Shown here piece after piece: positions 2,879 to 64,000 of a DNA stretch of 64,000 bases; position 1 is the first letter of the stretch; every line of letters starts with the position of its first letter. Position numbers and translations under genes: made by a program. This DNA is from Crotophaga sulcirostris. Its lineage: Eukaryota; Chordata; Aves; Cuculiformes; Crotophagidae. Where the stretch lies: positions 911,278 through 975,277 of the forward strand of contig VYZB01000218.1 of the NCBI GenBank assembly GCA_013397455.1, in the 5' to 3' direction. The notes beneath the pieces are model-generated. The model was not told the DNA's origin and ran no database searches. It saw nothing but the letters and a program-made list of their open reading frames with translations.

Positions 2879-5874
<2,996 letters not shown>

Positions 5875-57171: not shown

Positions 57172-57321
57172 GTCTCATATGTAAAAGCTATCGACATCTG
57201 GATGGCTGTGTGCCTTCTCTTTGTCTTTGCCGCATTACTGGAATATGCAGCAGTCAACTTTGTTTCACGGCAGCACAAGGAGTTTCTGAGGCTTCGAAGA
57301 AGGCAAAGAAGACAAAACAAG
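57172..57321 (+). CDS. GLRA2: GLRA2 exon 8: M3 and start of the cytoplasmic loop
   Basis: This 150-bp, phase 0-0 exon encodes 50 residues. It starts at [10 protein letters not shown] in the M2-M3 linker, continues with M3 ([20 protein letters not shown]), and ends in [20 protein letters not shown]. Tyr in VSY matches alpha-1 Y279, and Ala after WM matches A288, an alcohol and anaesthetic site. The basic tail [12 protein letters not shown] is the N-terminal basic cluster of the M3-M4 loop. Its RLRRRQ form and FVFAALL fit alpha-2; alpha-1 and alpha-3 have RFRRKR and FVFSALL. The acceptor is TTTCTAG and the donor AAG|GTACAG, a weaker donor than those of the other exons. The following coding exon (EEDVTRESRF-type in alpha-2) is not found before the window ends. 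Confidence 0.98.
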
Positions 57322-58224
57322 GTACAGCTGCTCTTTACCTGGGGTGACTGAGTCTGCCCTGACAGCACGCTGACGTGCAGCTTGATTTCTCATCTCAGTT
57401 CTTGTTTTTGTGGGAGAGTCTCATTCTAAAGTTTCTTTTTGAATGATTTACTCCTTGATAAAGAGCTGATAACTAGACACTGGGTATTTACACTTCATGA
57501 AGTTATTGAGAAATGTCAATAGATTGGTCACTGATTCCAAGAATTTTATTCTCTGCTTGCAATTGCTGAGGCAACTGCACCTTTACTTTTGAAATTATAT
57601 TGTCTTCTAACTCCCAAATATTATGCTATTATGTGGCACCCAACAGCAGATAAGGAATAGTTAGAAGCAATGACATAGATAGGATATCAATATTATTTCC
57701 TTGACATCATTCAGACATGCTGACATCAGCACATGCTTGAGATCTATCTTTTCTAGTGCCACTCTAGTTAGTCATGATAACAAGGGTAGCCAATTGCAGA
57801 GCAATTGGCAGTTCTGTCCTCACTTCTAAACCACCAGTGACTGGTGTCTTTCCTAGCTGAAACCAGTAAACATAGACAGTTTTAAAAAAAGAAGGATTAG
57901 GACAATTTCGTCTCCACATTCTACTATTCCACAGTTTGTTACTGATGCTAATTTCAATTTTTTAACAAAGGCCCTGTTAGCCACATCATTTTATGCTAGT
58001 GACTGAAATGTAGAAGAGAGTCTTGGTTTTAATCTAGATATCACTCTAGAAATGTTTTAAGAAATTTGTCCATCTTTTCTGATTATTATTTTGCTAAATG
58101 ACAAGTATAAACATTAAATTCAATTTTAATTCAGTTTTGATAATTCCCACAACTATAAAGGCTTCATCCTTCCTGTATCTATGTCACTAGTTTTCAGTAT
58201 CAGTAGAAACATTTAGATTTACGC

Positions 58225-58520: not shown

Positions 58521-59175
58521 AGATGTAATGCCACTGGAAGCCTTTGTACCAAAAAATAGTATTGCAGTAGCAGAAGCTACTGTATGGGGTCTGTAATTTC
58601 AGGTTTGGGTACAATGTCTTCTCTAGAGATGAACAAATAGGAATGGTAAGTAATATTATCCAGTGGCATCACTCAAAAAGTTTGGTTTTGGTCCATGGAA
58701 GTGGTCATTCCTCACTTGTGGGTATGATTATTTTGGTGGCTATTAAAAGAAAGTTGTTTAACACCGAATCACCAGAAGACTTGTGCTAATGCTAAGCCAC
58801 AAAATGCAGGGATTCTTTGCAAAATAGGTAATGCCCTAATTAAATACAAGAAAATACTCTGCTAGAGTAAGATACACCGACCAATTTGCACAGGCTTTTC
58901 TTTTCTTCTATGAATCTGGTTGCATGAATTTCAAAATAGGGAGTAATGTTTCTAAGACCATCTCTTTAGGAGGTCTTCTCTGCATCTCTTTACTTGAGCT
59001 TTTCTCTCACAGTTTTCTTATTTTATTTTGTCTTGAAAGTGATTCACGTTGTTTTGCATGAAGCTCTTCTCTAACTGAGCCGTTCTTCTCTTTGCGTGTT
59101 GTGTATGTGTGTCGTGTTACCTCTGTGCTATTCTCATTCTTGCTGCTGCTATCTATGCTGACACTCTGGGGACAG

Positions 59176-59295
59176 GCACAGGCTATGACTGTTGGGAATG
59201 AAAGCGTCGAATCCATGCGGCGCATGAATGGCTTGCGGAGCAAAGAGTCATCAGCTTACGGGACAGTGAATCAGATCGGCAATTCAAGTTTGAGG
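59176..59295 (+). CDS. GLRA2: Candidate GLRA2 cassette exon (40 codons, M3-M4 loop)
   Basis: This 120-bp segment is open in the frame set by exon 8 (phase 0 at both ends). It is preceded by a pyrimidine-rich tract and AG (59174-59175), with a second in-frame acceptor AG at 59180-59181. It is followed by G|GTAAAA at 59296. The translation begins AQAMTVGNESVESMRRMNGL and ends with YGTVNQIGNSSLR. By my count it has 7 CpGs and 61 G/C of 120 bases, in a CpG-poor intron of roughly 38% GC. Inclusion would insert 40 (or 38) residues after RRRQRRQNK, the same place where GLRA3 has its alternative exon in the M3-M4 loop. I do not recognise the peptide. It could also be an exon of an unknown nested gene or a conserved non-coding element. 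Confidence 0.45.
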
Positions 59296-59662
59296 GTAAA
59301 ACCATAGTGAGAAAGAGAAAGCAAGAGAAAGTTTTAGTATGTGCAATGATGTCATAAATCAGCAAAATGGATGATTTTGATGGCATCACTAGTAGTCTCT
59401 TGTATTCTCTTTGCTAAATGTCTCCACAAAATACACAGTACTGTCCCCAGCATGAACAGCAGTTTCATGTTGTACTATCTTATGACCCATCCTTATGCTT
59501 GCTTTTTTCCATAGTTGGCTTGTGTCACCTCTATTCCAAACCTCCCAAGGAAAGTGCATGTATATTTGGTAGCCTGATCCTTTACAAATCTAGGGTGAAT
59601 GGGGGGACAGGAGTGTAGGAAATGCCTTGAGACAGTAAATCCCACATTGTGTTATCTTTCAG

Positions 59663-59686
59663 ATGAGAACAGTCCAACAAAATTTG
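59663..59686 (+). CDS. GLRA2: Candidate 24-bp GLRA2 micro-exon (8 codons)
   Basis: A good acceptor (TTGTGTTATCTTTCAG) at 59647-59662 is followed 24 bases later by a good donor (TTG|GTATGT). The 24 bases are phase 0-0 in the exon 8 frame and read MRTVQQNL without a stop. The candidate lies 367 bp downstream of the 40-codon candidate, so the two might be spliced together or alternately. Such a short segment between plausible splice sites can occur by chance, so confidence is low. Confidence 0.2.
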
Positions 59687-62730: not shown

Positions 62731-62919
62731 CAGATTAAAGAGCACAGATTAAAGTAGCTTCAGCTGTAGATAAACATCCTCAAGATATTGTGATTACTTT
62801 TATTTCTCCAGGGCAATTGCATTAGCACTTTAATATAGCTGCAAAGAAAAAAATCCAGTAGAAGATAAATATACCAAAATGATCATTAGGCTTGAAGTTA
62901 TAGTCCCACATCCAACTAC

Positions 62920-63278
62920 AGGAGGCTCAGGGGCGACCTTATTGCTCTCTACAACTACCTAAAAGGAGGTTGTAGTCGAGCAGGTGTTGATCTCTTCTCA
63001 CAGGTGACCAGTGACCGAACTAGAGGGCACAGACTTAAGCTTCGTCAGGGGAAGTTTAGACTTGATGTTAGGAAAAAGTTCTTCACTGAAAGGGTGATTG
63101 GCCATTGGGATGCACTGCCCAGGGAGGTGGTGGAGTCGCCGACCCTGGATGTGCTTAAGGGAAGACTGGATGAGGCACTGAGTGCCATGGTTTAGGTGAT
63201 GGAATGGTGTTAGTGTTGGCTTATAGGTTGGACTTGATGATCTCAGAGGTCCTTTCCAACCTTGTGATACTGTGATAC
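62920..63278 (+). mobile_element. CR1 LINE, plus strand, GATACTGTGATAC-tail subfamily
   Basis: It starts abruptly at GGAGGCTCAGGGGCGACC, in the late ORF2 coding region. The frame 63004-63195 reads the ORF2 C-terminus without a break: [20 protein letters not shown], then [20 protein letters not shown] and LDEALSAMV, then a stop. The 3' UTR follows and ends in CTTGTGATACTGTGATAC. It is well preserved, so likely younger than the copies at 21734 or 37637. It belongs to the same subfamily as the minus-strand copy at 53302-53557. Confidence 0.95.
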
Positions 63279-64000
63279 ACAGAACGAGTCAAATAATAGA
63301 CACAATGCATATCAATAATAAGGATAAGAATAAGAATAAGGATAGATACATTTCAAGGGAGAGAATTCTGAAAACCAAATAAAAATTTGGGTACATTAAA
63401 CATTTGGTAATCAAAAGCAGACTAATTTATGGAACATGTAATACCAGTTCCTGAGAAAGACCTTCAAATATCATGTCCAAAAATATTTAATCATTAATTA
63501 AAGCTGATAGAATACAAGTGCGCAAGCTGAAGTAATGAAATCCAGGTACCAGAACAGAGGTGAAGCCAGGAGAACAAAATCAAAAGAACAAATTATTTCT
63601 GAAAAAAACCCAAACAAACACACAGACCCCCACAAAAATGGAGGGCAGGTTAAACATGCCTAGACTAGAGGTGGCACAAAATAGAGAAGTGGAGGACTGT
63701 TGGGGAGTTGGTATGGATGCAGAATGGTGGCTCTTTATAACTGCTGAAATGATCAGTGCAGTGCAATATAGAGTACTCTGTGGGAGAAGGGGCCAAGCAA
63801 TCAACCCGTAGGGACCAGGCATGGCACCGAAGCACCAAGTAAGACATAACAGAGTGTAATGACTTATGTTGACCAGCTGGCAAATACTTTCACAAGTTCC
63901 TCCTTAACATTAAATCAGATATGGACAGTATATAAGCATTGTAAAATTAAGTTTAAAGGGCCTACAGAACAGTAATATTGCAATATTTCAGATCTAGGAT
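63279..64000 (+). other. GLRA2: Last intron, end of window
   Basis: This is AT-rich intron with an AATAAG-type simple repeat at 63314-63346. No exon, and in particular no alpha-2 M4 exon, is present. Short open frames on both strands around 63560-63880 have no recognised similarity. Confidence 0.8.
63314..63346. repeat. (AATAAG)n-type simple repeat
   Basis: Five to six imperfect units of AATAAG/GATAAG just downstream of the CR1 tail. Confidence 0.8.

Follow-up and report, generated by a model that had tools for sequence, protein, structure and literature searches.

The window, by which we mean the whole 64-kb stretch of DNA analyzed, carries the 3′ half of the glycine receptor gene GLRA2 on its plus strand. 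A tblastn search with human GLRA2 located parts of four exons at approximately 1399-1488, approximately 2743-2883, 5536-5817 and 57172-57321, and the last of these, exon 8, was 98% identical to that query. Exon 8 stops at a codon boundary after ...RRRQRRQNK, with a GT at 57322. Exon 9 lies beyond the window in the same genome, at window coordinate 85008; it begins in phase 0 after CCCCCAG and encodes EDEVARDSRF...HEDIHKK, so that the intron between the two exons spans approximately 27.7 kb. When exon 8 was searched against the bird's own genome, one match at 100% and three paralogous matches at 77-82% were obtained. The region at approximately 62900-63280 resembles the 3′ end of a bird CR1-type LINE. 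Features are collected in Table 1.

Table 1. Features of the GLRA2 locus and of the corresponding introns of its paralogues; positions are those of the window unless a locus is named
Feature	Position	Strand	Basis
Constitutive exon 8 of GLRA2, coding M3 and the basic cluster RRRQRRQNK; donor in phase 0	57172..57321	+	tblastn
TGCATG upstream of predicted cassette exon	58921..58926	+	motif scan
TGCATG upstream of predicted cassette exon	59055..59060	+	motif scan
Predicted GLRA2 cassette exon, 40 codons, phase 0-0	59176..59295	+	open frame, splice dinucleotides, cross-species protein matches
Six-base tandem-acceptor extension coding Ala-Gln	59176..59181	+	sequence; 41/41 amniote and 0/11 frog spliced rows
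Donor GTAAAA of predicted GLRA2 cassette	59296..59301	+	sequence; corresponding ends are R|GTAAAC in GLRA3 and R|GTAAAG in GLRA4
TGCATG between the two predicted cassette exons	59555..59560	+	motif scan
Second predicted cassette, 24-nt microexon ATGAGAACAGTCCAACAAAATTTG (MRTVQQNL), phase 0-0	59663..59686	+	splice scores; two predicted isoforms
GLRA3 intron 8 segment, 111 nt, 37 aa, phase 0-0	L007:4692-4582	minus	AG...GT, open
GLRA4 (by elimination) intron 8 segment, 105 nt, 35 aa, phase 0-0	L006:1044-1148		AG...GT, open

Many predicted bird isoforms designated X5 (446 aa, or 454 aa where the microexon of Table 1 is present) are without 46 residues, from GKFTC... to ...DAAP, which comprise M1 and the start of M2 and belong to the M1-M2 exon at 5536-5817. 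These isoforms look as if an acceptor inside that exon had been used, and their function is doubtful.

The predicted cassette exon is situated 1.85 kb into the intron between exons 8 and 9. Its 120 nt are open, bounded by AG and GT, and translate without a stop codon as AQAMTVGNESVESMRRMNGLRSKESSAYGTVNQIGNSSLR; because exon 8 ends and exon 9 starts on codon boundaries, the segment is in phase 0-0. The acceptor side reads ...ggacag, and a second in-frame AG occurs six bases into the exon, at 59180-59181. An earlier reading of this DNA from its letters (hereafter the sequence-only reading) had proposed just such an open 120-bp segment, with an acceptor, a donor and two in-frame acceptors six bases apart, and we recovered each of these elements where it had placed them. 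It had also counted 7 CpGs and about 51% GC, and our recount gave 7 CpGs and 50.8% GC. A density of 7 CpGs per 120 bp was reached solely within 59159-59324 of the 64 kb (window mean 0.78), while the GC content is less exceptional, being equaled or exceeded in 5.4% of 120-bp windows. The splice sites themselves were scored with splice-site frequencies, and the acceptor scores of the exon were weak. By the same scoring, the plus strand has 47 segments of 60-201 nt, open and in phase 0, that match or beat its acceptor and donor scores, a count that includes the cassette and exon 8, and we therefore rejected splice-site scores as proof of an exon. What raises the segment above chance is not its splice anatomy, but the conservation of its protein across species.

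Three protein searches were performed with the insert alone, one with the window insert, one with a frog insert and one among short proteins, which was intended to pick up fragments from further vertebrates, and together they returned 54 insert-bearing proteins, comprising 52 predicted spliced GLRA2 proteins and two unspliced genomic frames. In the window-insert search, where the 40 residues were placed in a full-length context, 50 of the 51 candidates at E<=10 carried the insert: 40 predicted GLRA2 proteins of birds, representing 31 species (identity 83-98%), nine frog proteins (70-74%) and one genomic reading frame (93%). In the frog-insert search the figure was 16 of 19, the new members being two frog proteins and one from the lizard Hemicordylus capensis, and the only candidate of the short-protein search (1/1) was a genomic frame 88% identical to the bird/frog consensus. 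The spliced rows thus represent 40 bird proteins from 31 species, one lizard protein and 11 frog proteins from seven species. As pipeline predictions, these 52 rows are stop-free by nature and may copy each other by homology; having been retrieved because they hold the insert, they are uninformative on species without it and on how frequently it is absent. No mammal, fish, turtle or crocodile was named in the window-insert and frog-insert searches, whose proteins are representatives of 90%-identity clusters. A PDB search with the insert gave a single unrelated match (E = 1.1).

Within these proteins the position and length of the insert were highly regular. The end of exon 8 precedes it in 52/52 spliced rows, and in 51/52 exon 9 comes after it, directly in 49 and behind the microexon in two; the remaining row (a partial Mesitornis protein) has other sequence there. 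Inclusive of the window and the two genomic frames there are 28 distinct inserts, constant in length within amniotes and within frogs. All 11 frog rows have 38 residues, a length that corresponds to use of the downstream acceptor, and the Ala-Gln extension is thus an amniote feature in this sample, in which amniotes have 40 residues and frogs 38. The sequence-only reading had expected 38 or 40 extra residues in birds. The longer form was present in 41/41 amniote spliced rows, but a 38-residue form made through the second acceptor was found in none of the 41. Its broader proposal of a long bird GLRA2 isoform gains support, as such isoforms are predicted in many birds with these residues placed right after exon 8, and the exon is not limited to birds, since predicted proteins of frogs and a lizard also carry it. 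Both genomic frames read through the upstream intron into the exon, which keeps its length and frame; relative to the window, the upstream intron reading shows a frame shift in P0055 and one gained residue in P0014.

Comparison of five frog rows with bird row P0013 showed identity at 27-32 of 38 insert positions, at 39-41 of 49-50 positions in the rest of the loop, which is constitutive, and at 48 of 50 positions in exon 8. The insert thus comes near the remainder of the loop in bird-frog identity and falls short of exon 8. Among birds, 19 of the 40 insert positions are variable. The 25 changes observed there have a mean BLOSUM62 score of 0.48, compared to -0.26 for random changes of the same codons, and only 131 of 20,000 draws scored as high. 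The cassette protein is thus conserved in birds, lizard and frogs, and 59176-59295 is almost certainly a real coding exon of GLRA2, a conclusion we draw from sequence comparison. One could argue that the segment does not work as protein at all, having been kept for RNA reasons or propagated as annotation from one pipeline to another, as all 52 spliced rows are predictions, the acceptor scores are weak and many AG...GT segments of the window score equally well. However, amino-acid conservation from bird to frog at constant length, the conservative nature of the substitutions and a CpG density unmatched elsewhere in the window make this explanation highly improbable.

We also considered whether the exon could be constitutive in birds and frogs. 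The bird and frog proteins of the sample, having been selected for the insert, are all of the long form, as such a reading would have it. Nevertheless, most rows bear the names of numbered isoforms, the acceptors are weak, and the GLRA2 PDB chain 9y7p_A leaves no room for an insert, with exon 9 aligning from residue 361 directly after exon 8. Constitutive use is therefore very unlikely indeed, and alternative use of the cassette exon is, in our judgment, very likely.

The microexon of Table 1, which the sequence-only reading did not include, lies downstream of the cassette exon and reads with its flanks tgttatctttcag|ATGAGAACAGTCCAACAAAATTTG|gtatgt. No other open AG...GT segment of 24 nt on the window's plus strand equals it in both splice scores. 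The two spliced rows (of 52) that have a counterpart directly following the 40-residue insert are from Cuculus canorus (MSTVQQNL) and Myiozetetes cayanensis (MSAFQQNL). Its length of eight residues is that of the known GLRA1 insert, although the sequences differ when compared by eye. The open 24-nt AG...GT segments of the GLRA3, GLRA4 and GLRA1 introns included no homologue of the microexon, the best candidate agreeing at 2 of 8 residues. The surroundings of the cassette exon contain TGCATG, which we take to be an RBFOX-type motif, three times at a distance of no more than 300 bases, compared to 35 copies in 64 kb, as well as a dense set of 14 TCTT motifs, mainly upstream. Seven motifs were tried in one species, and the combination of TGCATG and TCTT near the exon, while suggestive only, would fit neuronal splicing control.

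Splicing of GLRA2 was reportedly described by Kuhse in 1991, and the known splicing of this gene concerns the mutually exclusive exons 3A and 3B of the extracellular region; the cassette belongs to the same gene, but to the M3-M4 loop. PTBP2 and NOVA are stated to act on Glra2 splicing in passages of one paper (PMC6092797). Other glycine receptor genes have optional residues at this very place. As portions of the published accounts describe it, the long form of GLRA3 (GLRA3-L) has an insert of 15 residues, TEAFALEKFYRFSDT (PMC9534812), and shows slower desensitization, presynaptic targeting with SEC8 and slower diffusion (PMC9534812; PMC4891346). The sequence-only reading had placed an alternative exon of GLRA3 at the same point as the GLRA2 cassette, and this was borne out by the GLRA3 PDB chain 9bu2_A, where exon 8 aligns to residues 310-356 and exon 9 from 373, with 16 residues between. 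This gap fits one residue left from the end of exon 8 followed by a 15-residue insert, so that GLRA3-L maps to the junction used by the GLRA2 cassette. Both are cassettes of the cytoplasmic loop and enter it behind the basic cluster, but GLRA3-L is shorter, at 15 residues, and its sequence is unrelated by eye; we therefore rejected the GLRA2 insert as a homologue of the GLRA3-L exon on grounds of length and sequence. The GLRA3-L peptide, which is known from mammals, was unrecognizable in the GLRA3 intron of this bird, where 20 of 100 shuffled peptides scored as well.

GLRA1 provides a further comparison. Its insert (alpha1ins, SPMLNLFQ) likewise adds optional loop residues at the same junction and is intact in this bird at L008:2309-2332, directly upstream of exon 9. 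Unlike the GLRA2 cassette, it consists of 8 residues contiguous with exon 9, and because it is contiguous with that exon and preceded by AG, it appears to arise by use of an alternative acceptor and not from a separate exon. Predicted GLRA2 isoforms that contain the cassette exon are present in NCBI and UniProt for birds, frogs and Hemicordylus; they are automatic, and no functional description was seen among them. The sequence-only reading had called the exon undescribed. In agreement with this, no paper describing a GLRA2 M3-M4 cassette was found among the open-access matches listed, and the peptide RRMNGLRS was absent from the open-access texts searched; however, the database predictions already hold the exon, and in that respect the word does not apply. 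The predicted exon would be a further glycine receptor M3-M4 loop cassette, and an overlooked long form of the GLRA2 glycine receptor probably exists.

We asked how the cassette relates to the corresponding introns of the paralogues, which were identified among the exon 8 matches in the same bird genome through their exon 9 and PDB. Locus L007 is GLRA3 (E = 3.3e-51) and locus L008 is GLRA1 (E = 3.7e-55). Locus L006 is nearest to GLRA2 and GLRA3 and has no close solved relative (best E = 1.7e-28), and we call it GLRA4 because of elimination only. The introns had been picked beforehand and both strands were scored; in GLRA3 and GLRA4 the gene strand was best. On the gene strand, the segment in the GLRA3 intron reads ag|GVLDGNEISESLQHSNGLTCTGPIDGILPQIYSTNLR|gtaaac, and that in the GLRA4 intron, which has GC-rich surroundings, reads ag|GLSSGTASLESLQQLSGQCGSEHTYATLSQLSSSR|gtaaag. 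This bird's GLRA3 intron has a GLRA2-like segment in place of a recognizable GLRA3-L peptide.

The strength of the similarity varied by query. The frog insert scored 64 against the GLRA3 intron (25 on the other strand), a value reached by none of 600 shuffled queries (maximum 42) and none of 200 dinucleotide-shuffled introns (maximum 40), and the window insert scored 51 against the GLRA4 intron (29 on the other strand), again with none of 600 shuffled queries (maximum 49) and none of 200 shuffled introns (maximum 39) as good. Scores were lower for the reciprocal pairs. The window insert scored 43 against the GLRA3 intron (1/600 shuffled queries, 0/200 shuffled introns), compared to a maximum of 45 in 28 unrelated 4-kb window chunk-strands, and the frog insert scored 42 against the GLRA4 intron (0/600 shuffled queries; 1/200 shuffled introns, maximum 44). 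For the lizard insert, 23/200 and 10/60 shuffles were as good against GLRA3 and 2/60 against GLRA4. The GLRA3 segment was matched by 21/60 shuffles when compared to the GLRA4 intron and by 64/2000 when compared to the GLRA4 segment directly, and a profile of the GLRA2 inserts gave E = 0.12 for GLRA3 and did not list GLRA4 at E<=10. In the GLRA1 intron we found no homologue of the long cassette: the best scores were 26 and 25, and of 600 shuffled queries 431 and 443, respectively, did as well.

In both GLRA3 and GLRA4, an AG, a GT and phase 0 occur at the ends of the alignment or within two codons of them, which the scoring did not require, and we find the likeness persuasive because these features coincide with the alignment ends unasked. 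The segments of GLRA2, GLRA3 and GLRA4 thus have in common a similar peptide, the junction, the strand, the phase and the ends. Alternatively, a genuine cassette may have been born in GLRA2 alone, in the tetrapod ancestor or somewhat earlier, with the likeness to GLRA3 and GLRA4 due to chance. The weak pairs would fit such an origin, namely the lizard insert with GLRA3, the GLRA3 segment with the GLRA4 intron and the two segments with each other, as would the profile result. However, the best pair for GLRA3 and that for GLRA4, which differ in their query, both outscored all 600 shuffled queries and all 200 shuffled introns. They did so in the one relevant intron per gene and on the gene strand, and the AG, the GT and phase 0 coincide with the alignment ends or lie close to them; we therefore regard a birth in GLRA2 alone as unlikely. 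Paralogy of the GLRA2 cassette with the GLRA3 and GLRA4 segments is, as judged from these alignments, the likely explanation. Should these counterparts be real, the exon would predate the divergence of the genes. We lean, with modest conviction, toward an ancestral M3-M4 loop cassette of 35-40 residues, inherited by vertebrate glycine receptor alpha genes, that predates the separation of GLRA2, GLRA3 and GLRA4, was kept in those genes of birds but not in GLRA1, where it was lost, and has so far escaped description; the tie between the GLRA2 cassette and the GLRA3 and GLRA4 segments was absent from the passages of the literature examined.

We propose that splicing the cassette in between exons 8 and 9 would add 40 residues (38 in frogs) to the M3-M4 loop of alpha2, and that these would sit directly behind the basic cluster that follows M3. 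There they may serve as a flexible Ser/Asn-rich docking segment switched by splicing, and inclusion may shift the trafficking, anchoring, mobility or desensitization of alpha2 receptors, as GLRA3-L and GLRA1-ins do for their receptors. By analogy with these forms, a role of the insert in trafficking, anchoring or desensitization seems to us somewhat favored. The cassette would be one of a small family that GLRA2, GLRA3 and GLRA4 carry at one and the same junction, with an origin before the early-vertebrate separation of the genes. We infer nervous-system expression, flexibility and every functional effect of the GLRA2 insert. An AlphaFold2 model of the long isoform, built with 10 sequences, was unusable (mean pLDDT 33), and we make no structural claim for the insert because of this value.

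A different mechanism could also be envisaged, in which the insert and the basic cluster form a kinase D-docking site and/or a Tyr-x-x-hydrophobic endocytosis signal, such that inclusion would couple the surface level of alpha2 to signaling. The 8-residue insert of GLRA1-ins, according to portions of one report, combines with this basic cluster into a D-docking site for ERK, with Ser380 phosphorylation and endocytosis (PMC6703679), and the pattern R/K-X2-6-hydrophobic-X-hydrophobic was found in 26 of 26 distinct rows of flank plus insert, the YxxPhi pattern in 24 of 26. However, of 5000 shuffles of the insert columns, 693 did as well for the first pattern and 767 for the second, the GLRA3 segment has neither motif by eye, and no Ser/Thr-Pro site was seen by eye to be shared between frogs and birds in the loops compared. 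We consider this mechanism rather improbable, and we rejected both linear motifs as findings, frequent as they are, because they were not significant in the column shuffles. The reading we prefer as a whole, that of a GLRA2 cassette which belongs to a paralogous family and acts as a splice switch of the loop, appears quite likely.

The alpha2 subunit is a developmentally important subunit of glycine receptors, and some of the animals in which the long isoform is predicted are standard spinal cord and retina preparations. Rare GLRA2 variants are linked to human autism (PMC5440463). A conserved long isoform in birds, a lizard and frogs, if true, would mean that alpha2 shares with alpha1 and alpha3 a kind of loop switch, and the GLRA3 and GLRA4 counterparts, if true, would mean that one ancestral cassette links three genes. 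If the ancestral cassette is also absent from mammals, an ancient long form of these receptors would have escaped work in rodents and humans. Provided that the counterparts in GLRA3 and GLRA4 are genuine, the question of which loop segment the ancestral receptor used becomes testable from existing RNA data.
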